Notes under the pieces: generated by a model
Database searches by the model: none
Told to the model about the DNA's origin: nothing
Seen by the model: the letters and a program-made list of their open reading frames with translations, nothing else
Program-made: the position numbers and the translations under genes
Shown: positions 13,684 to 28,869 of the stretch, piece by piece
Numbering within the stretch: position 1 is the stretch's first letter
Layout of the letters: the number at the start of each line of letters is the position of its first letter
DNA from: Xanthostigma xanthostigma
Taxonomy: Eukaryota; Arthropoda; Insecta; Raphidioptera; Raphidiidae
DNA length: 64,000 bases
Direction: 5' to 3'
NCBI GenBank assembly: GCA_963575645.1
Contig: OY754465.1
Span: 1,116,001 to 1,180,000 of the forward strand

Positions 13684-15834
13684 ATGTTGTTAAAACATGG
13701 ACGTTTAAAAGACAAATTTTCTTGTGATGGGGATTAGTTTCAGAAATTGTTAGAAAATTCTACCAATCATCACGCAGTTTTAACACTTCGAGGATTTTTG
13801 TAGGGCCAACAAACGCTTTGCAACTAAGACAAGCTGAAATAAATGAAAATGCAATTTTTAAAGTTGAAATACGATATTTCTTGCAACAGTGGATTGGAAA
13901 TGTACTGTGACTGATGCGAAGGAGCGACGAAGCAACACAAGCAAAGTGATATACTAGGTATCGCGTTATTTTACCTAAAACAAACTGTAAGAATAGAAAA
14001 ATGATATTCAGTACGATTGTCCTTTGTTTATCGCAACTGTAGCTTGACTTCTTGCGCCACTCAGCTGACGGGGGAAAACTTTCAAAAAAGAAATTAGGAA
14101 ATTAAACAGTCTCCATCAGTTATAACGAATCCCTAAAATAGGCTTGTTATAATATCTACGTTCTCTACTCAGCGCTACGTATTATTGCAAATATTAATTG
14201 TTTACAATTATGGAAGTTCAAGTTACACACGTCATTAAAAAAATCGAAAAAGAAGCATGACATGTGTTAGGCAGTACCTAATTATGCCAGTAGATCAAGT
14301 GTAAATGTTGATATAAGCTTGCATTCCTACCCTCGACGTGGCAAACACAAAGTCAATGTGAAAAATTATTTTGGAAATGTTGAAAAAGTGAATTATATTG
14401 AATATTTTGAAATGGACTCCGTCTTCAGGTAAAACCCCAATATCCAAAGCTTGCAATACGCGTAATAAAGAAAAATAAAACATTTGACTCCCATTATGAT
14501 TCAAAATTAAATGAGAAAAAAGGAAATTGTATTTTTTTTCATAAAAATGATTTAATTCGGAAAATTTTGTAAACAGGCATTCTCTAAGTCCCGAGCTTAA
14601 GGACGTTTACTCTACCCACCATAAGTCAAGGTAACTATTATGAATAACCTAGTATTTTTTTATCTCGTAAGTGATAACTGATATCAGACTGCAGATAAGA
14701 AGTCATATCGCACTATTATTTAAACAATCACTACGAACATTATCACCAGATAATTAGATTAATATACTTACAGCCCAAAATTTCGTAAATTACTTTGTCA
14801 TTTTAATATATAGGTACTAACTACCATTTCTAATTTCTGTTAGCATATCACGCATTAATACCGCCTAAATTATAATACGTGTAAAATACAATAAACAAGT
14901 TTAAAAAAATGGAAAAATATAACAATATTATGCAATAATGAAGCAACAGATGCATCTACAAATATAACAAGCTGCATTTTTTTTGTTTATATATTGCACC
15001 TAATTAAATATCGTCAGTAACATTGTCATTGCATAAAAACCTGTTTTTATGATTCAACACAAACTTGTTAAAATATAAGCTTTCTTTGAAATTATGATTA
15101 GCTCATTTTATCCTGCTTTTTACAAGTTTCAGATAATATGTGTGATTAGGATAATAGTTCTATTAAAGGCGGGGGTCTAGGTTTATGTAGAATGAACGAG
15201 AAAAAAATCAGTCACTGATCGACATGCACAGAGACCTGCCCCAACTGCAATAATCGCGTAAACTTATATAAAGACATAATTATTGGATTCTGTTTGATGA
15301 ATATGATTTAATTAGTAGAATAAATATTCAATGCTGACAAAATTATTGCGAAAAATGACTGGATAAATAATAGGAAAACAAAGAAAACATTAACGTCATA
15401 ATGTGCCAAGAATATCTAAGATTACAGAGGACATACCTATTCAATCACAACACAGATTTGTCTCAAATTTCCGTAAAAAATGCGTCACTAAATAATTTTA
15501 CAGTATTTATTTTAGCAAATATTTAATAAAAAACAGGATAACAGTCTTCCATGAAGTACACTAATTCGAAAACACCACTTTACAACGACCAACATTAAGG
15601 TATTTATAAGAACTAAGTAAATATTCCCACCAAAGGCACAAAAGTAAAAAAATAACAGTAACTTTGTTCAAAATAATTTTTACATTCGCAACACTGCGAG
15701 TCTTGCAGCGGGGGGCAAAACGTGAATTTGTTATGAAATGGCTTGTCAGTTCGAAAGTTAGGTTAGAATTGTTATATGTACTTTCTTGGTAAAATAATAC
15801 TGAATCGTATGATTTAACTTTTAAATAAAATATA
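13684..15834. other. intergenic stretch before the LYR/MTRFR genes
   Basis: AT-rich sequence without a recognised coding frame or dated element. The promoter of the LYR/MTRFR transcript should lie near its right end, but no TATA box or initiator can be singled out. Confidence 0.5.
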
Positions 15835-16882
15835 ATGGAAGTACCGAGTAGTACTCAAGTACTTCGCCTTTACCGACAACTTATAAGGTACGGACAGAAA
15901 CTGCAATATACAGATAAAAACTACTATTATAAACGTGTCATAGCGGAGTTCAAGAGAAACAGAAGCTTGGAAGATCCAAAGGAAATAAAATTCCAGTTTG
16001 ATGTAGGTATCTTTAAATTCTGTTTATTGTTAATAGACTCAAGAATGCAGCGGACTCGAAATGGGATTATATAATTTTAGGGTTATGTTGCGTACAAACA
16101 GATCATGTAAAATTGCAAACACAAAACTTGTTATGCCGGCACTTCACATGGCTATTTGTGTTTGTGTATTTGGCAAACAATTACCAAGTGTGGAGGGTCT
16201 ATTTGACAAAGTGTTGGCCTTATTTGCCTATTTGACAAATAAGGCCGATACCAAATACGCGTTATCGTGCGCTTGTCGGTTTTTCGAGGCACATCAAAAG
16301 AGTCAAATATGGCATTTAAACCGTCCACACAATGGCTATATTCAGAAGCGCACGCGTCGTGAACCTGTACGGACGTGCAGTATTTTTGTGTTTGTGCTGT
16401 GAGCGAGAACTGGAACAATTACTATTGAAAATGAATTGGGACAATGAAACAGTGCTAAAATTCCTAGAATTTTGAACCTGCGTTCTGCTGCCAAATGTTT
16501 GTGATTGCTATTTGACTGCCATGTGTGGATGGTCGTATTTGCCTGCCATGTGTGGATGGTCGTATTTGCCTCTATTTGCATGTTTGCCTTGAACGTCATA
16601 TATTTTGCCAAATACAACAAACACCCAATAGCGAACACAAATAGCCATGTGAAGTGTCACCTTTAAAGTAGGGATACTTATTAATGCTAGAGACCTTCGT
16701 CATATTAAACTATACCAAACCAAATATGGAGGAAAAAAGTTGATCTAAAATGTCATTAACCTGATAGAAACAAAATTATGGCTATCCGGCTATGTCCCCT
16801 TCTAACCATTCTGTTATATAAAGATTTTCCTTATTTTTTCTAGAAAGGACACAGTCTTTTAAAACGCAAATCGGTAATGTAG
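15835..16882 (+). CDS. MIEF1-MP: LYR-motif mitochondrial microprotein, homologue of the MIEF1 upstream-ORF microprotein; two exons
   Basis: Exons 15835-16002 (56 codons, donor GAT/gtaggt) and 16844-16882 (12 codons plus TAG, acceptor tttttctag/AAAGGA), phase 0, give 68 residues. The N-terminal half carries the LYR motif (VLRLYRQLIRYG, residues 9-20), then YTDKNYYYKRVIAEF (residues 25-39) and the NRSLEDP segment. Exon 2 reads KGHSLLKRKSVM, matching the KG..L end of the human 70-residue microprotein encoded upstream of MIEF1. That protein sits with an acyl carrier protein on the assembling mitoribosomal large subunit; the same role here is inference. The start has A at -3 and G at +4. The stop TAG (16880-16882) lies one base before the MTRFR start, so both frames probably share an mRNA. 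The intron (16003-16843) holds a 0.5 kb inverted-repeat element. An LYR protein of another subfamily is possible, but length and exon-2 match argue for this one. Confidence 0.85.
16139..16659. mobile_element. inverted-repeat element in the LYR intron
   Basis: ACTTCACATGGCTATTTGTG at the left is mirrored by CACAAATAGCCATGTGAAGT at the right. Inside, a 29-bp unit containing CTGCCATGTGTGGATGG is duplicated near 16520-16580. The long frames on both strands here are shadows of the repeat. Confidence 0.85.
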
Positions 16883-16883
16883 T

Positions 16884-17303
16884 ATGGCGGCATCAAGACG
16901 CTTTTTCTCAATTAAAACATTGGTCAACACATTTGTCCGTTATAAACATACAATAGATTATTCCCATGTGCCAGAATTGAACGAGAAAGATCTAGAAGAA
17001 ATGAGCGTACGCGGAAGTGGTCCAGGCGGTCAGGCTGTGGCAAAAACGGCAAACAAAGCTGTTCTAAAACATATTCCGACCGGGATTACTGTTTATTGTC
17101 ACGAAACAAGGTCATTAGATCAAAATAGAAAAAAAGCACGATTATTGTTAATAACTAAATTAGACAATTTAATTAATAAAGAAAATAGTGTAGAAGCTCA
17201 AATGAAAAGAATACAGGACCAAAAAAGCGCTAAAGCCAAAAGCAAACGAGAAAAGCTGCTTCAAATGAAATTGGAATGGAAAAAAAGGGAAGGTTTCGAT
17301 TAA
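16884..17303 (+). CDS. MTRFR: mitochondrial translation release factor in rescue (C12orf65 family)
   Basis: A single uninterrupted frame of 139 codons. Residues 1-22 (MAASRRFFSIKTLVNTFVRY and on) are basic, hydroxylated and free of acid, as expected of a mitochondrial presequence. The domain begins at VPELNEKDLEE, followed by VRGSGPGGQAVAKT with the GGQ tripeptide that enters the peptidyl transferase centre, then the conserved HIPTGI, CHETRSLDQNRKKAR and a lysine-rich tail of about 40 residues that in the family lies in the ribosomal mRNA channel. It lacks the codon-recognition domain of true release factors, as family members do; those work with MTRES1 to free peptidyl-tRNA from split mitoribosomes. 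The start at 16884 is one base after the LYR stop, and no extra exon is needed. Reinitiation after the 68-codon frame, or a promoter inside the upstream intron, would be needed for expression. No AATAAA is evident right after the stop. Confidence 0.95.
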   Translation: MAASRRFFSIKTLVNTFVRYKHTIDYSHVPELNEKDLEEMSVRGSGPGGQAVAKTANKAVLKHIPTGITVYCHETRSLDQNRKKARLLLITKLDNLINKENSVEAQMKRIQDQKSAKAKSKREKLLQMKLEWKKREGFD

Positions 17304-17827
17304 ATAATTCGAAATATTAACATTAATGTAGAGTTTATTTGTACTTTTAATAGGAATGTATGAAAAATACAAAAGTTAAACAATTTTAACTGTTCTATTT
17401 TTTTATGAACATAATAATTTTAATGATTTTTTCAAAAATATGAAACATTTCAAGAGATTCTAAACAGCTGTATTCCAAAGTATTACAGAAATCATATTTG
17501 AACAAGTCTTTGAGCCTGAAAAAATCAATTATACGACTCAAAATCTACAATTATTATGAGTATGATTGAGGGCGGAGGGTCCAAATGGCTAGATATTTGG
17601 CCCTGGTGCCTATTCGTAGCGCCACAGCTCTTAATCCTACATACTGGGACTTTCAGTTTCTTGTTAATAGCAGTTAATTAAAAAAAGAAACAATTTAGGA
17701 ATGTAAGTTGGCTCGCATATATTTCTGATTGCAGAATAACACACAAAAAAATCTCAAAACGGTAAAAAAAGGGTGGCATAATTAACAAACTAAAATCAGG
17801 ACAATCCGTACAAAATCACCACAACAA
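17304..17827. other. tail-to-tail interval between MTRFR and WRN
   Basis: About 520 bases hold both 3' untranslated regions. I see no strong polyadenylation signal for either gene and no recognised repeat. Confidence 0.6.
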
Positions 17828-20800
17828 TTATAATTTTAAACGTTTTGCGGAAGGTTCTTTATCTTCCAAACACTTGTCCACCATATTATCAATTTCTTCC
17901 ATATCATTGACATCTAAATCAAATCCATCATCATCATCCCAAATACTGTCATTTTCAGTTTTTTTACTGGCAGTTAAATAACTATTTGTATAGCGCGGCG
18001 GAGAATCTTGTAAAAAGTCATCATCATCAGACTTTTTTCCCTCAGAAATACTTTCTGATTCGTTGTTCAAAGATGAGGAAACTGTATGTTTCTCTTTATC
18101 ATCATATTTTAGTTCTGCGTGGTGTACAGACAACTGCTCTTTTTCTATAGAACTATTTTCCTTGCGTTCATTTGAACTAGCCTCTTCTTTATCACCAGAA
18201 CTCAGTTCAAACCTTTCTTTTGTTACATTGGTTTTTGGTTCATCCTCTTCTTCGTCGCCAGAACTCAACACAAATTGTTCCGGTTCATTTTTTTTACTTG
18301 GTAGCGGATCATACTCTTTATAAGGTATATTCAAAGAGTCCAATTGCTGACGAATTTTTAAATAACCACAGACTGCGTTGATATGACCCCACTCTATTTC
18401 TTCAGGACACAAATCTTTAATTTTTTTAGCCGAGGAAAAATCTACACAAGAGAAATGCCACACTTTTAGCGAGTAAGAATAAATGGTTAGACACAACGCA
18501 GACTAACTTTCCTATATACAGATTGTATCAAATCAAAACGGTCCAAAGAACATTCTGTGTGTAAGACAGAGACGATATTATATAAAGCACTAAAGCAGTA
18601 AGTAAGAATGAGATAAATGATCGCTAATAGTTACTGTGGTTATACAATCTGATAGTATCGTCTTTGCTTTCTACAGTAAAAATCACAATTTTATCAAATG
18701 TCAGTATTCACTAGTGAAATTATTGATAAAATGGCTATTTATTATAATCGGTTAGGATATTGTTTGGCAGAACGTGGAGGTCTTTTTGAAAATTTAATAA
18801 ATTAATTATTAAAAGTATTGTTAAAACTTTCGTACCAGATATAAATAATAATATGAATTAATATTACGGTTTAGTTGTTTTAATTGATAAATTGGTAAAA
18901 AGAGTTACAGTGTACGTAATTATTTATTTACGTAACCACAGTAACTATTAGCGATCATTTATCTCATTCTTACTTACTGCTTTATATATCGTCTCTGTCT
19001 TACACACAGAATGTTCTATGGACCGTTTTGATTTGAACAATCTGTATATGATGAGTGGACCTATCCAGTATAATACGCGCCACGAATCTAAAAGGCTCGG
19101 AAGTTAGATGCGAATGCAGGCTTGCGCTTGTACAGTCTGTTGAAAAACTAGACTCGCAACTCAACAAAATTAAAATAAAAACTTGACAATAGCGTACTTG
19201 ACTGTACTTTAAAGCAGGAAAGCGACAAGTGACAAAGGCAACGAGCGATCACGGCCAGTCACCGACGAGCGCACGTTCCGTGCAGGTAGCTGAGAGGGGG
19301 TGGGAGTCTTAACGGCTCTAAAATGTGCCTTTGCGACACCCAAATTAAAGTTTTTTTTAAAGTATAAATATGATAACACTATTTATCAAAACTTACCAAA
19401 ATTAAGTTGTTTAATTGCTCTTAATATTTTATTTATGATAATTTCTGAAAGTCCAATATCTTTTAATTTAATTGGAGCGCCTGCTTTCATGACATCTACT
19501 AAATGATTTTCAATTGTAGATTTTGCCAAATTTCTACAAAAATTCAAATATTAAGGTTAATTATTTAAAATGCAGGAAAAAAAAATTATAATGAACAAGC
19601 GGGCGTCCCGGTTTCACCTGGGTACAAAATTATATGATTTATTAATACATAGTCTCTCTATCTCTCCTCTCTCTGTAAATATTATATTAACCTTCCCATC
19701 TATGCAACCATCCATACCCAACCACGTAACAACTTAGTAGGTGAAAAATTTGTTTTGGATAGGATTAGCACAAAATTCGTTCTTAGTGGGTGTCTATGTC
19801 AAGAAAGGATTAACTGTGCCAAATTTCAAGTTGATTGGGCGCATAATGTTGGAGATCTAGTGATGAGTCAGTCAGTGAATCAGTGAATGGTGTGTCGCTT
19901 TTATTATCTATACTAATATATAAAGCTGAAGAGTTTGTTTGTTTGAACGCGCTAATTTCAGGAACTACTGGTTCAAATTGAAAAAAAGTTTTTTTGTTGG
20001 ATAGCCCATTTATCGAGGAAAGCTATAGGCTATATAAAATCAGGCTACGACCATTAGAAGCGGAGCATTAATGAAAAATGTTGCAAAATGTATCTCAAAA
20101 ACAAGCTTCTATTCAGGTGAAATGCACTAACTAAATATACTCATATTAGCGTTGTCAGAATACAACGGCGGCTAGCTCAATCGGTAGAGCACACGACTGT
20201 CAATAACAGGGTCGTGGGTTCGAGCCCTACGTTGGGCGAATACATTTTTATTTTCTACATTGCTTTCTTCTAAGGCTTACATTTAAATTTATTTTAATTT
20301 TATTTAATTAATTAAAAAAAAATTATTAGTTAAAAAAAGTATAAATACTGCTTTTTATCGACATAAACTTTTGAACGGTAACTCCGATAATCATGAAATT
20401 TGGACACAACATTCATCTCGGTAAACAAAGATGAATGTGTGTACTCATGTTCTTCCCTTCCCCATTCGTTCTTTTACACCCGGGTGAAACCAGACGGGAC
20501 CGCTAGTATAATAATATATAGATATGCACCTCGTTTTCATGATCTCTTGTATTGATAGTCCATTTTTAAATAACGCGTACGTTTCTTTAGCTGAAGCAAT
20601 AGACTTTGAATTCGGTAAGCTGTGCCATTTTGAATCAGAATTAAACACAGTATTACTGCTTACAGGTACAGCCAGTATTTGTTTTCTGTCTGTAGGAGCT
20701 TTATTCTTGTCTGTATATTCTTTAATAAATTCAACAAATTTCTGCCCAAACTTCGAAATTTTTGCCTCGTTGAAATTATTTACTGTAATAAAATTTAAGT

Positions 20801-23800
20801 GGATTAATCACCTCCGTTCTGAATAGTTCCCGAATTTAATTTCGAAATAATTTTAGTTTAATAAAAGCACACAATTTAAAAAGTATAATACACGCCACGA
20901 ATCTAAAAGGCTCGGATGCGAATGCGGGTTTGCGCTTGTACAGTCTTTTGAAAAACTACAAACTCGCAACTCAACAAAACTAAAACAACAATAACAACTT
21001 GACAATAGCGTACTCGACTGTACTTTAAAGCAGGAAAGCGACAAGTGACAAAGGCAACGAGCGATCACGGCCAATCACCGACGAGCGCACGTTCCGTGCA
21101 GGTAGGTGAGAGTCTAAACGGCTCTAAAATGTACCTTTGCGACGCTGTTTGTGACTAACTTCCGAACCTTGACAATAGCGTACTCCACTGTACTTTAAAG
21201 CAGGAAAGCGACAAGTGACAAAGGCAACGAGCGATCACGGCCAATCACCGACGAGCGCACGTTCCGTGCAGGTAGGTGAGAGTCTAAACGGCTCTAAAAT
21301 GTGCCTTTGCGACGCTGTTTGTGACTAACTTCCGAACCTTTTAGATCCGTGGTGCGTATTATACATACAGTGCCGGTAAAAAAATAGAAACAACTTACGG
21401 TTACACTGACGGAATTCATCGATGTTTTCCGGTCTGTAATTTAATAATTCTATAAGAGAGCTATCGGTAGCGACCATATGAGGAGGACAATCGATTTCAG
21501 TTGCAATCGTATTGCGAAAGGATCTCAAAGCTTGGAAGAAATTCATATTATAATCTTGTACTTCTTTTGGATCAGTGTCCTCGTAAACTTTAATGCTGTA
21601 GTTAGAAACCGATGACTTTTTTGCATTGACACCGGCTGCCATACTCTCTAAATATTTTCTTGACCATCCATTCATAGCTCTGCAAATATAATTGAAATAC
21701 AAAGATATTTTTCATGAAACGATATTCTAGATTTATTTGGTTGAGGAACAATTGAATAAAAAATAGTTGGCAAAACCAAAAGTGCACATCCCGCAAGTTT
21801 TCCACTGTATGATAAAAAAATAACAATTAAAAAATATTTTTAATAAATTTAAAAAGATTTAAAAATTTACAGAAATAAATAATTAAAAATTGAAAAAATA
21901 TTTTTTTTAAGTTTAAAAAAAAAAAAAATTAAGAACTATACATAATATAATATATAATTAATATCAAGTGGAATAAAATAAAACAAAATAAAAAGAAAAA
22001 AAAAGAAAAAAATTAATGATTTCGTAAGGAATCGAACCCAGGACCTTGCCCTTGGGGATCCAACGGCATAACCATTACGCCACGGCGGCCTAATACGTGT
22101 AGCGGTGTTATCACGGTATAGAAGTGTAGCACTTGTTTTAAGGATTACACTATATTTACACAGCAATTATTATATTGTTTTTAAACTATTAGCTGTCAAA
22201 AATAATAAAAAATAAAACTGTTTATAAAAATTAAACTACTGAACACATTTTAGCGAATTTAAATAGGGTTCTGGTCTGATAGTAAACAAAGTGAATAAAA
22301 TATAACCCAAGGCAATCCGACCAAAATTGCGATCTGTAGAGTCGTGACGTACGTACGTACATACGTACAGACCAACCGACAACTGCTGTTTGTGATTTTC
22401 AATTACAATTTTAATAGTATTTATGAACTCAAATTGATTTAAAAATGGTTCTATTTTATAGATTAGAATCTCCTCTTTTCAAAAAGCTTCAATTTGAATG
22501 GATTTCGTGTGAAATTAACTTAGATATAACTTCTTATATGAACGAAAGTCAGCTCTGACGCACAAAGCGATAATAAAGCACATACCGCTAGTTTAGCGGT
22601 ATGTGCAATATAGTTTAAAAAAAACTAAAAAACACGCTTTATATCGAACTAAAAGGTAAAAATAGTATATTACACATCTAGGGAAGTAAAGTAAGAAATG
22701 TCTGAGATCACAAATAATTGTTGGCCGAGGCGAAGCCGAGGTCAACAAAGATGTGATCTTAGGCTTTCTTACTTTACTTCCCGTGGTGTGTATACTATTT
22801 TTTTGCTCGACGTAGGCAGGGAGAGGCAACTTCGTTTAGCGCAGCGGGACGAAAGTGGACGCTTTCTGCCCGTCGAGCAAAAAATAATTTTTTTAAAATA
22901 AGCTTAAAAAGCGTGGGGCACTTTGTTCCACATTTCCGTACATCGAGCGCCCCAACGCTTTTTAAGCTTATTTTAAAAAAATTATTTTTCACTTTTTAGT
23001 TCGATATAAAACGTGTTTTTTAGTTTTTTTTAAACTATATTTATTTTTCACTTTTTAGTTTGATATAAAGCGTATTTTTTAGTTTTTTTTTAACTATATT
23101 TTATTTTCCACTTTTTAGTTCGATTTATTGTCAAAAATTTGCCGAAAAAAAAAACAATTTTTTTTTCGGCGTGGACGGGATTAGAACCCACGACCCGTGA
23201 TTCCGAGAGTTGACGTCAGCGAAGACCCGTGCCTTAGACCGCACGGCTGCCAGTGTACTTACTGTGCTGGCATATTATACCGCTATATAAACGACTTGCT
23301 GTAGTCCAAAAGAGTTTACAAACATACATACTTATACTGGGTGCGGCAAAGTTTGGAAACGGTCCGATATTTCCGGAGGGTTAGGTTTGCGAAAAAAAAG
23401 TTTGGTATAAAAGTTGATTGGTTTTCAGTTTGCAATCGTTTGGTCACTGAATCATCCCCCAACCCCTCACCCCCCACGTGGGGGTGAGGATGACTTTGAA
23501 ATTTAAATCGCGGATTCGGGTTCAGAGAGAGACTTTTGGCCGAAAATTTTTTCGAACAAAAGTTGCCTAATTTTGCTCTCTGAACCCGAATCCGCAAAAG
23601 AAAATTGGGGTCGCGATTTGAAATTTCAAAGTCACCCTCACCCCCAGGTGGGGGGTGAGAGGTTGGGGGATGATTCAGTGACCAAACGATTGCAAACTGA
23701 AAACCAATCAACTTTTATACCAAACTTTTTTTTCGCAAACCTAACCCTCCGGAAATATTGGACCGTTTCCAAACTTTTGCCGCACCCAGTATACATCTCC

Positions 23801-26800
23801 TTCAATACATATTTTTGGAACAAAACTTCTACTAACAATTATTACTCTATAGTTGAAAAAAAAAAAATACATCATCTGTTTTTTTAACTTACTTATATTC
23901 TACATCTATTCTCTTCAAGCAATTCAGCATTTCAGGTAATGGACGTAATTTTAATTCAGCTGGTGGATTCTTAAGAAAATCGGTACCCTTTTGAGATATT
24001 TTGATTCTGTAAACACCAAATGTGCTTTTTTTCTGGCCATATTGCCGATTATTTTCAGTATCTTTTATTAAAAATCGTTCATCTAATAATATTCGACCTG
24101 TACGAAAATATCAATTTTATTAAACATCTTCTGCCTTTTTGAAACTGTACTGTTTTAGCGCAACGATATCCATAACACACAATATTGTTTGAAATTGGTT
24201 TTCACTACAAATGTTTTTATTTATTTACCTAGTCCTTTCCACCAGTCTACGCTGACATGATTTCCAGCGCCGTGCAATTTATTAGTCGAAAATGGTGAGA
24301 TCTTGGCATTGTGGGATCCTTTCAGAAAAAGAGAATACGTGTCGATACCATATCTATTTCCAAGAGCATTTACTGCTTGTAAAAATAATTTAGCATCTTC
24401 AGAAAAATTGTACATTTTATTTTCATCTAATCCTTCATATTTGGGTTCACGATTTTGTAATCTACAAAAAAAATAAGGATATTATTATTTCAGTCTTTTA
24501 TCAGATTTATCACTTAATTAAAAAAATATTACTTCACACGAGAACATTATAATTTCAATCAAAATTTAGTAGTGATATTTTTGAGTAGAGAAGTCCATTG
24601 GTAGCTATTTAAAAAATAAATATAGTTTAAAAAAAACTAAAAAACACGCTTTATATCGAACTAAAAAGTAAAAAATATTTTTTTCAAATAAGCTTAAAAC
24701 AATAATGAATAAAAAATACTAGTATTATTGTGAAAAAAGCGTGGGGCGCTCGATGTACGAAAATGTGGAACAAAGCGCCCCACGCTTTTTTCACAATAAT
24801 ACTAGTATTTTTTATTCATTATTGTTTTAAGCTTATTTTAAAAAAAATATTTTTTACTTTTTAGTTCGATATAAAGCGTGTTTTTTAGTTTTTTTTGAAC
24901 TATATTTATTTTTCACTTTTTAGTTTGATTTATTGTCAAAAATTTGCCGAAAAAAACAAACTTTTTATTTCGGCGTGGACGGGATTAGAACCCACGACCG
25001 GTGAATCCGAGAGTTGACGTCAGCGAAGACTAGCGCCTTAGACCGCTCGGTCAACGATTGCTCTTACAGTAGTGGCATAACATACTAACAGTAATAAACC
25101 ACTTGCTGTAGTCCAAACGAGGTTACAAACATACATACATACAAACTTACAAGTGAAACTAATACAAAGCGTGTAATTAGAGTTACAATGAAAATATAGT
25201 AATTGGCTCTACACGCTTGTCAATAATTATTTTCTACTTTTTAGTTCGGTTTGCTATTAAAGCGTTTTTTTTAAACTATAATTTATTTTCTTCATTTTTA
25301 GTCTCAAAACGACATTAAAAGTAATTTTTATCAAAATTTTCAAATTAAAATTTTTTTTCAAAAATTTTTAAATTCAAATTTATTTTTATGAAATAATTGT
25401 ATTGTCATCGGCCCTTGACACGTGTGCAAATTTTCAAGTTAATCAGACTTTTTGAAATTAGTGAAAATTACGCTGAAATATTCCTTTACATACATACATA
25501 CAGTTAAAGCTAATAAAAGCGTGTTAAGAATACGCCAACAGCTTGCACGGATTCCAGGACAATCACTAAACAAAGCAAATATTAAGCAGCTTAAAAAAAT
25601 AAAAACACTTACTTCTTAGTACAATTATCACAGCACTTGTCTTTCGCTGTGCCACTCAAGCTCTTCCCGTTGAAATAAGAAATGATTATATCCCGACGAC
25701 ATTCTGTCGTATATAAATACTCATTTACAGATTTGAATTTATCTTCTTTATGTTTTTTAATACTGGCCGACAAATCTTGCCTTAATAAACTATGAATCTG
25801 TTCGTCTCTTCGCGACGCAAAAACAACACAATGAGCCGGTAACCCGTCCCGACCAGCGCGCCCAACTTCTTGATAATAGCTTTCAATATCTTTAGAAATA
25901 CCCCAATGTATGATCAAGCGTACATCCGGTTTATCGATGCCCATTCCAAAAGCGATCGTGGCTACTATAATTTTAATTCTGTCTCGGATAAAATTATTAT
26001 GCACTTCTTTTCTGACTGATAACGATAAACCGGCATGATACACCTCGCACTTATAACCGCATGCTGAAGAAAAATACCAATGTCGCTGTTAATCAGGTTA
26101 AAGAGATCATTGGGTTTACATCTGAGACGGGCGGGCCCACAGGAATTTTGGGAGTCAATTGGCTATATAAGTTTATATACAGTATGTAAACGCGTAAGGT
26201 GCACATAGGGAAATTAGCATTGGGAAAAAATACTTGGATCAGAGTTAGCCATGACTGCATTAATTGTTATTTCTATTGAATTATCGTGGTAATCTTGAGG
26301 ATTTCTATTTTATTTTGATTTATTTTTATTTTACTTGGCTTTTTTAATAATAAAAAGCTCTTATAAATCATTATTTTAATTTTTTTTTGTACAAAAATAC
26401 AACTCCATCTGTTTGGAAACATTTCATTCAAAAATTGTGTGACTGGTATGACGTACAGTGACTTGATCAAGTCACTGTAGTATGACGTATGCGCGTTGGT
26501 AAATCAGTGACCCAATGTCTTTAGGTTCAACACGAATAGGCGGAGATATTTGATCTCGAACCATATTTAAGTATCTTTGGGAATTTAATGTCCCATTAAT
26601 AAAAAAAGTCCGATTATGTTGTAATCATTTGAATATTTTCTTCGGTAGTATACACATTCATTTTGCAAAAGAATATTATCTGTCAAACTGAAAAACAAGA
26701 TTTCAAGGCTCACTCTGATCCAGTCATTTTTTCCCAATGTTAATTTCCCTATGTGCACCTTACGTGTTTACATACTGTATTTTTTGTTTACTAGTTATGT

Positions 26801-28869
26801 CCACTATGAACACAGTTATTTCCACGATGGACACAGTTATCTCCATGATGGACACAATTGTGCGTTAAAAACATCTTTCTGTGAGTAATCTAAATTGGGA
26901 TTGCGATCGGTCACTTGATCAAAATCAATGTGAACAATATTTATGTCAACATTTCTGTTGAGAAACATTGCTAGCATTTTGTTTACTGCATATATCTATT
27001 AATTAACTATATGAATCATTGCCTATCTATTCAATGTGCGGTGAGTGAACGCAACAAAGCATATCGAAAATATATCTGCGTCTCTTTCTTCGATGTAATT
27101 CCCTGATTTTTCCGATGATAGGATTGGTTGATGTACTTGCATTCAATCTGAATAAAGTATCTCTGTTTCAAAAACTTTGTCTTTTTCTATGACGTTAATA
27201 TGGGCGTACCGAGCTTTAGGCCCAGGAGAGGGCAAATTAGAAATTTCTTAAGCCGGGTCCCCCGTGCTTGTTTTGCCCTCCTGGATACGCCAGTGCTTAC
27301 GGCGCAAAAAAAGACAGAAGTATATGTTTGCACCCTAGTAGTTCGATTGCGATTTTATTCCTATGCTCAGTATAGAATAAAAGTATATGGTTTACTGTGA
27401 GGGAGGTAAGTTTTTACAAGATAACTGTGATACTTACATTTTAATTCGGAAGCAACCGTTTCCGTCGCAGATCTCGAAATACAGTATATTATTACAGATC
27501 CATTAACGTTCGACAAATATTTATACAACTGTTCGACAACGTCATTTGTACGATTGAGTTGAACTTCAAAATATAAGTTAGGTCTATCAAAACCCGTGTT
27601 AAAAATCTTAGGAGTTCTAAAAATAATTCACCCAATCGTAGAATAAAAAATAAACGAAATAAAAACATTGAAATACCAAGTACCTCAGACACAAAGATTT
27701 TACAATATCTTTGCAAACGACAGGAGTTGCTGTGGCAGTTACGGCTAATACAGGGACGGTTGGGAATATTTTCCTTAAATTCCCTAATCTTTGAAATGCC
27801 GGTCTAAAATCGTGTCCCCATTGTGACACGCAATGCGCCTCATCGATAGCAATTAAGGTAATGTTACAACACGATTCTAGATTGCTTAAAAAACCTTCGC
27901 CGTATTCTCCCGTGGCAAATTCTGGAGTTAAGTAAATAAGTCTGTATTTTCCTGCCATTATATTTTGATTAGTTTCTGCCTTTTCCGTTTGAGCAGTTCC
28001 TAAGAAGCAGGCAGGTATATTTGACACCTTAAATATATCATATCATTATCATTTTATAACTTAAGTCCACTGCGCACGAGGCTGGAATTGCCGCTAGGTT
28101 CCTCTCTAGATTTCACTACTAGTTCTCTAGCGCTGGTTTTCTTCATTGCTCTGCAGGTAGAACGGTAGCAAAAGTGCATGTTCATTGTCTCTGAACAGAA
28201 CACACAATATGGCATAGTGTTTGTTTGTTCAAGTTGCCCACGTGACAAGATACTGCTTCCTGACTGGTTTTTGCTCATACCTAGCAAGAAAAATTGTCCC
28301 TGTTCTAATTTTAAAATCTATCTTGTGAGCTAACAGGCAAGCCCGCAGTGACGTCATTTCCAGCTTCGTACCCAGCCTACGGGCCAGCAGAAGTCCAAGC
28401 AGTGTTTCTAGCCTCGTGTGCAGCGGCCTTTAAGGAATAAAATACGGAACGCGTTTTAAAATAAGTTATTCGAACCTGCATTGAAAGCACTTGATCTTCC
28501 ATTAATGAAATAAGTGGGGAAATTACTATTGTAGTTCCACCCGTGAATATGGAAGGATACTGGAAGCATAGTGATTTTCCGTATCCAGTTGCCATTACGG
28601 CAAGACAATCCTTTTTATCTTTTAAAACTGTATATATTATTTCCCATTGCGTTTCACGAAATTGTTTATGACCAAAATGTTGAAATAACAGTTTTAAGTC
28701 AAATTCGGATGGTTGATTGCTGATCTGTAAACATATTACTAAAAGTAATTTTCTAATTTTTAATTTGAACACTATGTTAATACTGCAAATAAAACTTACC
28801 TGAAAAGGTACCTAAAAAAGTTAGTTTATTTCTTACCTTTTTTTCCTTGAAAAGAGATGAATCTCCCAT
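17828..28869 (-). CDS. WRN: WRN-type RecQ DNA helicase without exonuclease domain, 11 exons
   Basis: Exons, 5' to 3' on the minus strand: 28869-28837, 28724-28476, 28027-27684, 27616-27438, 26063-25613, 24461-24229, 24097-23893, 21679-21399, 20782-20530, 19533-19397, 18441-17828. They sum to 2979 bases, 992 residues, with every junction in phase. Seen: Walker A ATGYGKS (about 56-62), DEAH (156-159), SAT-like TATAT, an arginine-finger QEVGRAGRDG, zinc cysteines near 390, 412/413 and 416, an RQC winged helix (about 420-565, DWWKGL), HRDC (about 610-685), a C-terminal helix-turn-helix like that of WRN (about 744-830), and an acidic tail with two LSSGD repeats ending in KRLKL, a likely nuclear signal. 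SNIPACFLG and LIAIDEAHC identify WRN rather than BLM or RECQ5. An in-frame TAA lies upstream of the ATG and only 11 codons precede the helicase, so no exonuclease is fused. Intron 2 has a weak donor (GTTCGA) and acceptor (TTAAG). Confidence 0.93.
18514..19049. mobile_element. 535-bp fold-back element in WRN intron 10
   Basis: TATACAGATTGT at the left pairs with ACAATCTGTATA at the right. The arms run through CAAAACGGTCC, CATTCTGTGTGTAAGACAG and GATAAATGATCGCTAATAGT to a central AT-rich loop. Confidence 0.88.
19071..19338 (+). mobile_element. ATACGCGCCACG-family MITE, copy 3, right end truncated
   Basis: It starts TAATACGCGCCACGAATC and breaks off after GTGCCTTTGCGAC, so it lacks the right terminal repeat. 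The break lies 58 bases from the end of WRN exon 10. Confidence 0.85.
19602..19905 (-). mobile_element. possible Helitron-like fragment, reverse orientation
   Basis: GCGGGCGTCCCGGTTTCACC at the left resembles the complement of a Helitron 3' end, and the right part has GTCAGTCAGTGAATCAGTGA before the next element begins. The boundaries are uncertain. Confidence 0.4.
19907..20506 (+). mobile_element. Helitron-like non-autonomous element, 600 bp
   Basis: It begins TCTATACTAATATATAAAGC after an A and ends in CTAG before a T, the A/T insertion rule of Helitrons; GTGAAACCAGACGGGACCG lies just before the end. It matches the 358-bp copy at 46173-46530 at both ends but carries about 240 extra bases containing a tRNA-like sequence. 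It lies in WRN intron 9, 23 bases from the donor. Confidence 0.85.
20166..20238 (+). pseudogene. tRNA-Lys-like sequence inside the Helitron-like element
   Basis: TAGCTCAATCGGTAGAGC (A box) and GGGTTCGAGCCC (B box) match tRNA-Lys, as do the AGGGTCGTGG and ACGTTGGGCG segments. The anticodon stem does not pair (CACGA against TAACA) and the acceptor stem is poor, so it is a relic or SINE head rather than a working tRNA. Confidence 0.75.
20884..21364 (+). mobile_element. ATACGCGCCACG-family MITE, copy 4, with internal duplication
   Basis: Both terminal repeats are present. The inner block from TTGACAATAGCGTACTC onward (about 168 bp, 20999-21166) is repeated in tandem at 21168-21335. The element ends 34 bases from the WRN exon 8 donor. 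Confidence 0.88.
22028..22094 (-). pseudogene. tRNA-like sequence (SINE head or relic)
   Basis: Read on the minus strand, TGGCGTAATGGTTATGCC is A-box-like and GGTCCTGGGTTCGATTCC is B-box-like, with a T-rich tail downstream. The anticodon arm does not fold convincingly. Confidence 0.5.
22608..23300 (-). mobile_element. composite repeat: 60-bp tandem units plus tRNA-Leu-like head
   Basis: Inverted arms flank a GCGTGGGGCAC core (22608-23040). Three tandem units of about 60 bp built on CACTTTTTAGTTCGATATAA follow (to 23130), then a minus-strand tRNA-Leu-like sequence (23163-23256) with GTGCGGTCTAAGGC and GTGGGTTCTAATCCC. A related assembly lies at 24618-25170. Confidence 0.65.
23333..23793. mobile_element. 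461-bp near-perfect hairpin MITE
   Basis: TATACTGGGTGCGGCAAAGT at the left is mirrored by CCGCACCCAGTATA at the right, and the arms stay paired almost to the centre, including C/G-rich CCCCCACGTGGGGG-like blocks. It sits in WRN intron 7, inside a CATA-repeat tail of the preceding element. Confidence 0.9.
24618..24906. repeat. 289-bp near-perfect hairpin in WRN intron 5
   Basis: The arms begin ATATAGTTTAAAAAAAACTA and meet at GCGTGGGGCGCTCGATGTAC. It is the palindromic portion of the composite repeat that continues into a tRNA-Leu-like segment. Confidence 0.88.
24966..25060 (-). pseudogene. tRNA-Leu-like SINE head
   Basis: On the minus strand GACCGAGCGGTCTAAGGCGC and GTGGGTTCTAATCCC are clear A and B boxes, with a long variable-arm region (ACGTCAACTCTCGG). 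The upstream TACA repeat and downstream A-rich unit fit a tRNA-derived SINE. Confidence 0.7.
26178..26779 (+). mobile_element. Tc1/mariner-like element with transposase remnant, copy 1
   Basis: The ends are TACAGTATGTAAAC and GTTTACATACTGTA, about 35 bp each and including GGTGCACATAGGGAAA. On the minus strand VIPVTQFLNEMFPNRWSC resembles the FLNE.FP.RW segment of DDE transposases. A small palindrome is inserted at 26454-26479. Confidence 0.75.
26454..26479. repeat. 26-bp perfect palindrome insertion
   Basis: TACAGTGACTTGA is followed by its exact reverse complement. GTATGACGTA stands on each side (26446-26455, 26480-26489) but only once in the two sister elements, so 34 bases were added here. 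Confidence 0.9.
26995..27392 (-). repeat. inverted partner of the 12374-12760 repeat
   Basis: It shows sequence identity in reverse to 12374-12760, including GATACGCCAGTGCTTACGGC and TTTCTATGACGTTAATATGG. It ends 45 bases from the WRN exon 4 donor. Confidence 0.75.
28058..28432. mobile_element. MITE in WRN intron 2, related to 62108-62390
   Basis: AAGTCCACTGCGCACGAGGC at one end is mirrored by GCCTCGTGTGCAGCGGCC at the other. The same terminal sequence occurs at 62370-62390. It nearly fills the intron. Confidence 0.65.

Follow-up and report, generated by a model that had tools for sequence, protein, structure and literature searches.

An AltMIEF1-type LYR microprotein and the mitoribosome rescue factor MTRFR in a probable conserved bicistronic gene of Xanthostigma xanthostigma

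A 64,000-nucleotide stretch of the Xanthostigma xanthostigma genome (hereafter the window; GC content 33.35 percent) contains two ORFs separated by a single base, of which the first (ORF1) is predicted to encode an LYR microprotein of the AltMIEF1 type and the second (ORF2) the mitoribosome rescue factor MTRFR (Table 1). We consider it highly probable, from comparison with related proteins and transcripts, that this locus is a conserved arthropod bicistronic gene in which one mRNA carries both ORFs. The bicistronic mRNA as such is already known from arthropods, and the locus adds a case: the uORF has been on record since 2008 and LYR/RF-1 predictions since 2015. The value of the present analysis lies in joining these pieces: a so far uncharacterised fly uORF would belong with AltMIEF1 and would share its mRNA with MTRFR, and the human counterparts of the two proteins meet on the split mitoribosome.

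Table 1. Features of the ORF1-ORF2 locus, in window coordinates
Feature	Position	Strand	Details
LYR microprotein AltMIEF1-type, exon 1	15835..16002	+	56 codons; LYR motif; F39 conserved
GT-AG intron, 841 nt, phase 0	16003..16843	+	position apparently common to relatives
MITE-like insertion in intron	16140..16656	+	perfect 23-nt terminal inverted repeats
LYR microprotein, exon 2	16844..16882	+	KGHSLLKRKSVM, then TAG
Spacer base, ORF1 stop to ORF2 start	16883..16883	+	ATGTAG T ATGG
MTRFR/C12orf65, single exon, 139 aa	16884..17303	+	GGQ motif; short N-terminal region before RF-1 domain

As read from the sequence, ORF1 starts with the ATG at 15835 (MEVPSSTQVLRLYRQLIRYGQ...) and continues up to GAT at 16002. 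Joining the donor of exon 1 at 16002 (GAT/GTAGGT) to the acceptor at 16844 (TTATTTTTTCTAG/AAAGG) adds an exon of 39 bases, with the stop codon TAG at 16880-16882, and gives a spliced product of 68 aa. This product matches the Pfam family Complex1_LYR (Pfam accession PF05347; E 5.2e-13, 49.2 bits against a cut-off of 24.8). Its best match in the PDB is human AltMIEF1 (5ool_v; 4.7e-11, 45.7 bits), with LYRM4 far behind at 26.4 bits; the entry 'Predicted gene, 55359', which we take to be the mouse counterpart of AltMIEF1, is matched at 9e-10. A single-sequence search for LYR homologues gave no candidates, whereas an alignment-based search did, and many insect relatives among the best 120 of 190 proteins from the latter are named by NCBI 'MIEF1 upstream open reading frame protein' or 'mitochondrial ribosome and complex I assembly factor AltMIEF1'. 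By these matches ORF1 is predicted to belong to the AltMIEF1 (L0R8F8) subfamily, the other LYR proteins of solved structure being more distant.

The relatives also bear on the splice junction. Divided by sequence pattern rather than by taxonomy, 49 of the best 120 of 190 LYR relatives are vertebrate-type and the remaining 71 non-vertebrate-type. With one residue of slack allowed at the junction, 32 of these 71 have a [KR]G tail, 39 have V within one residue and none has neither. The V looks like the product of reading straight into a phase-0 intron, which begins with GT, and since all 71 relatives show one pattern or the other, the intron position appears to be old. A second in-frame splice pair lies four bases on (donor after 16006, acceptor 16848) and would give ..FDVGHSLL.. 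instead of ..FDKGHSLL..; because relatives conserve [KR]G, the comparison favours the first pair, although the exact site is slightly ambiguous. The content of the intron is local here, 517 of its 841 bases being filled by the MITE-like element. No clear target-site duplication was seen by eye at this element (16140-16656), and the window contains no second copy.

ORF2 begins with the ATG at 16884 and ends with TAA at 17301-17303. It matches the RF-1 family (Pfam accession PF00472; E 1.4e-20), with GPGGQ present, and at just 139 aa lacks a codon-recognition domain. Its nearest solved relative is human C12orf65 (7a5h_C, 1e-25; 2rsm_A, 4e-22), followed by RF1 at 1.8e-9, and its nearest database relatives are insect proteins; a tree of 43 MTRFR rows assigned the sequence to no supported group. 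ORF2 is accordingly predicted to be MTRFR/C12orf65 rather than another release factor. The initial annotation had named both proteins, had placed the splice junction so that it restores a conserved KG tail and had held that the arrangement is unlikely to be chance. The Pfam and PDB matches of the two products bear out both identities and the judgement against chance, and the splice coordinates are confirmed, with the restored [KR]G tail conserved among relatives.

Two side observations concern MTRFR and its surroundings. MTRFR relatives of several insects (weevils, Timema, Lepidoptera, Nezara) have GGS instead of the catalytic GGQ. Among the best 120 of 223 proteins from the homologue search, six rows have GGS alone and five have one GGQ and one GGS motif (P0001, P0002, P0003, P0026, P0040, P0055/P0105, P0043, P0044, P0079, P0085, P0086); Ceutorhynchus has one GGQ and one GGS protein, on contigs of equal listed size. 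The GGS variants look like products of repeated duplication, one copy perhaps being inactive in release. Convergent with MTRFR, on the minus strand at about 20445-28811 of the window (perhaps from 17828), lies a RecQ-type helicase gene, presumably WRN-like. Its DEAD, Helicase_C, RecQ zinc-binding and HRDC matches, together with an HTH_40 match below the cut-off, fall in separate open stretches, and the stretch 17828-18502 has no Pfam match.

The pairing of the two genes recurs among database proteins. Seven of the MTRFR relatives (best 120 of 223), all from insects, have an LYR domain before RF-1 in one protein: those of six beetles (Zophobas, Phaedon, Abscondita, Tenebrio, Aquatica and Carabus) and of the mosquito Anopheles christyi. 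The junctions mostly differ among the seven models, and the MTRFR start is lost in four (Zophobas, Tenebrio, Aquatica and Carabus), while the Phaedon and Abscondita models seem to retain it. We read these models as predictions that bridge two adjacent ORFs, which falls short of proof of one mRNA. A Timema protein (P0026) opens with MKKGLSLLNSKR and continues into MTRFR; its ORF1-like tail (KKGLSLLNSKR) was recognised by eye, and it has no Pfam LYR call.

Contig sizes provide a further comparison, made on rows with a contig entry from the two lists (best 120 of 223 for MTRFR and best 120 of 190 for LYR), a selection that omits many vertebrate LYR rows. Four species have NCBI contigs for both proteins there (Tenebrio, Tribolium, Pyrocoelia and Ischnura), and in each of them the LYR and MTRFR proteins lie on contigs of equal listed size. 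The Pyrocoelia locus tags are consecutive (RI129_006174 and RI129_006175), and Tenebrio has two more MTRFR rows on other contigs (P0009 and P0073). Among short non-NCBI contigs there are four equal-size cases against 0.92 expected (P 0.014), a weak result on which we do not rely. Insect DNA of the locus was not confirmed with the LYR query in either the viral or the genome contig collection. The MTRFR query returned 59 loci at 28-50 percent identity from the viral contig collection, which we set aside as presumably viral or bacterial RF-1 proteins.

We take the Drosophila gene CG30100 to be the fly MTRFR, in keeping with its description as a release factor. Hayden and Bosco (2008) reported that CG30100, which they called a translation release factor, has a uORF for a conserved peptide of 70 aa, that both ORFs lie on one fly transcript, that Ka/Ks is 0.08 for the uORF and 0.09 for the mORF (both p below 0.0001) and that the association also occurs in an Ixodes (tick) EST (PMC2276209). 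From the size and location of this uORF, and from the Drosophila rows P0145 and P0180 of our search, we infer that it is AltMIEF1. The uORF protein and its pairing with MTRFR are, as far as database sequences tell, conserved in insects. The initial annotation had treated the two genes as belonging together and had suggested looking for the same adjacency in other insects. As far as database proteins and published ESTs go, the outcome is positive, and the LYR/RF-1 proteins in seven of the 120 relatives listed, the fly transcript and the tick EST all speak for the pairing.

How ORF2 is translated can be approached from the composition of ORF1. We think it reasonably likely that ORF2 is reached mainly by leaky scanning past the ORF1 AUG, a route that the initial annotation had left out; the two routes it had offered, reinitiation and a promoter in the intron, are both kept here as rivals. 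Within spliced ORF1, ATG occurs only as the first and the last codon. No out-of-frame ATG is present, against 0.65 expected under synonymous resampling, a difference that is not significant (P(0) 0.35). Among relatives, counted from the LY motif on, residues before it being excluded from all ORF1 counts, Met accounts for none of 1824 residues in the 32 non-vertebrate-type rows with a complete tail, 4 of 1755 in 39 exon-1 pieces and 2 of 2870 in vertebrate-type rows (best 120 of 190). The control was MTRFR itself, from GG[QS] to the end, in the 85 of 120 rows that have GGQ or GGS and no more than 150 aa (best 120 of 223), where Met makes up 102 of 7804 residues. A one-sided Fisher test of 0/1824 against 102/7804 gives p 4.4e-10, which is no true probability as the rows are related. 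With the rows thinned until they were less than 75 percent identical, the counts are 3/1656 against 66/4863 (p 3.6e-6, again for related rows), and a comparison with the thinned 57-aa core of MTRFR gives a modest difference (3/1656 vs 21/3021, p 0.012). Two LYR stretches from single genes, too few for a real control, have 1 Met in 64 (human LYRM4) and 0 in 54 (NDUFB9, presumably from a plant). The scarcity of Met in ORF1 relatives is the pattern that leaky scanning requires. The start context of ORF1 points the other way: with A at -3 and G at +4 (AATATAATGG), it is not the weak context expected for leaky scanning, and a good context should keep leakage low, which counts against this route. 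ORF2 likewise has A at -3 and G at +4 (TGTAGTATGG).

Two transcripts could also supply the two proteins, the LYR protein being made from a long transcript and MTRFR from a short one that starts in the intron or in exon 2. We regard this as unlikely, given that the intron is mostly an inserted TIR element and that both ORFs have been described together, on a transcript in the fly and in an EST of the tick (PMC2276209). The intron promoter of the initial annotation gains no support as a conserved element, 517 of the 841 bases belonging to the insertion, though a promoter of some kind may be present.

Termination-reinitiation, in which a ribosome ending at the TAG at 16880-16882 shifts one base to the ATG at 16884, would be suggested by the one-base gap and by the last codon of ORF1, which is itself ATG and gives ATGTAGTATGG. 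Reinitiation after an ORF of 68 codons over a one-base gap would, however, be unfavourable and unusual: ORF1 is long for this route, and there is no distance over which initiator tRNA could be reloaded. The terminal Met is not conserved, being present in none of the 32 relatives with a complete tail (best 120 of 190), and the RNA fold in 16844-16960 is ordinary (z -0.10). No Rfam match was found in 14000-19000. As the main route to ORF2, reinitiation therefore seems improbable to us.

There is only a slim chance that ORF1 acts chiefly as a regulatory uORF, its nascent peptide repressing MTRFR and its protein being secondary. In a human reporter the MIEF1 uORF did repress the main ORF, in part depending on its sequence (PMC7530721), but the whole LYR domain is conserved and the human protein has been solved as a component of a mitoribosome particle; the two roles are compatible. 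We give still less credence to alternative splicing that joins LYR and MTRFR in one fusion protein, of the kind that several database models show. A donor-like GTAATG at 16874 overlaps the ORF1 tail, and the Zophobas (P0033) and Timema (P0026) models pass from this tail into MTRFR at one common position, directly ahead of the H in the KH pair, a shared junction that is probably a prediction artefact. Against a fusion, the in-frame acceptors tested to 17059 are poor in pyrimidines, none exceeding 0.61 while the real acceptor reaches 0.89, junctions vary among the other database models, and Hayden and Bosco dropped genes with a fused splice variant but retained CG30100 (PMC2276209). That ORF1 and ORF2 are chance neighbours without a common mRNA has next to no probability, the pairing recurring across insects and in a tick EST, so that the relatives already contradict it.

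The structure searches with ORF1 and ORF2 led to one PDB entry, 7a5h, that contains both human AltMIEF1 and C12orf65. As reviewed in PMC8786322, this particle is a split mtLSU with peptidyl-tRNA, mtRF-R and MTRES1; the split mtLSU also bears the MALSU1-L0R8F8-mtACP module, which blocks subunit joining, and the AltMIEF1-containing module has roles in both mitoribosome biogenesis and rescue. The structure and the review together give the insect gene products human counterparts on the same particle, and by analogy the insect products would act on the mitoribosome as the human ones do. In the mechanism we envisage, the first AUG of a common mRNA would yield the LYR protein of ORF1, and ribosomes scanning past that AUG would yield MTRFR from ORF2, so that leaky scanning would fix the ratio in which the one message yields the two proteins. 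On the large mitoribosomal subunit the LYR protein would associate with mtACP and MALSU1, as its human counterpart does, and MTRFR would free the stranded peptide from the same subunit in its split state. We put forward only tentatively the fuller proposal that arthropods keep an operon-like unit for split-mtLSU rescue. In such a unit the amount of AltMIEF1, as anti-association factor, relative to MTRFR, as rescue factor, would be set by leaky scanning through an ORF1 almost free of Met, while in vertebrates the partner of AltMIEF1 is MIEF1.

If such a unit exists, AltMIEF1 would predate vertebrates and would take part directly in the rescue of mitochondrial ribosomes as well as in their assembly; a long-conserved mRNA common to AltMIEF1 and MTRFR would be independent evidence for the rescue role. 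The origin of MIEF1-MP has been placed within vertebrate evolution (PMC10032668), with which the arthropod relatives sit badly. CG30100 and its uORF offer a fly locus for direct testing of both the link and the translation route. In the open-licence literature we found no paper that equates the CG30100 uORF with AltMIEF1, or that links the AltMIEF1-MTRFR pairing, the fly uORF and the mitoribosome facts.

Among the known systems that resemble the locus is Drosophila CG30100, with a small conserved ORF of about the size of ORF1 upstream of a release-factor ORF on one transcript; the term LYR is absent from the main text of that paper (PMC2276209). Table 2 of Angerer (2015) contains predicted proteins with LYR and RF-1 (C12orf65) from three Drosophila, Anopheles darlingi and Solenopsis (PMC4381221). 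These have the same two domains as the locus described here, but were entered there as predictions of fused domains and attributed to LYRM4. Bicistronic genes of green algae, for which leaky scanning is the translation route, resemble the locus in a gap that is often short or absent and perhaps in the small number of start codons before ORF2; their ORF1 start contexts are described as weak, whereas that of the insect ORF1 is good (PMC11291117). AltMIEF1 (MIEF1-MP, MIURF) upstream of human MIEF1 is well studied (PMC7530721, PMC5703645, PMC4383229), and the comparison with that human locus drawn in the initial annotation holds. In both cases a related LYR protein is encoded upstream on a two-protein mRNA, but the human partner is a fission factor and the insect partner a ribosome rescue factor. 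The same microprotein would thus have a different bicistronic partner depending on the animal group.
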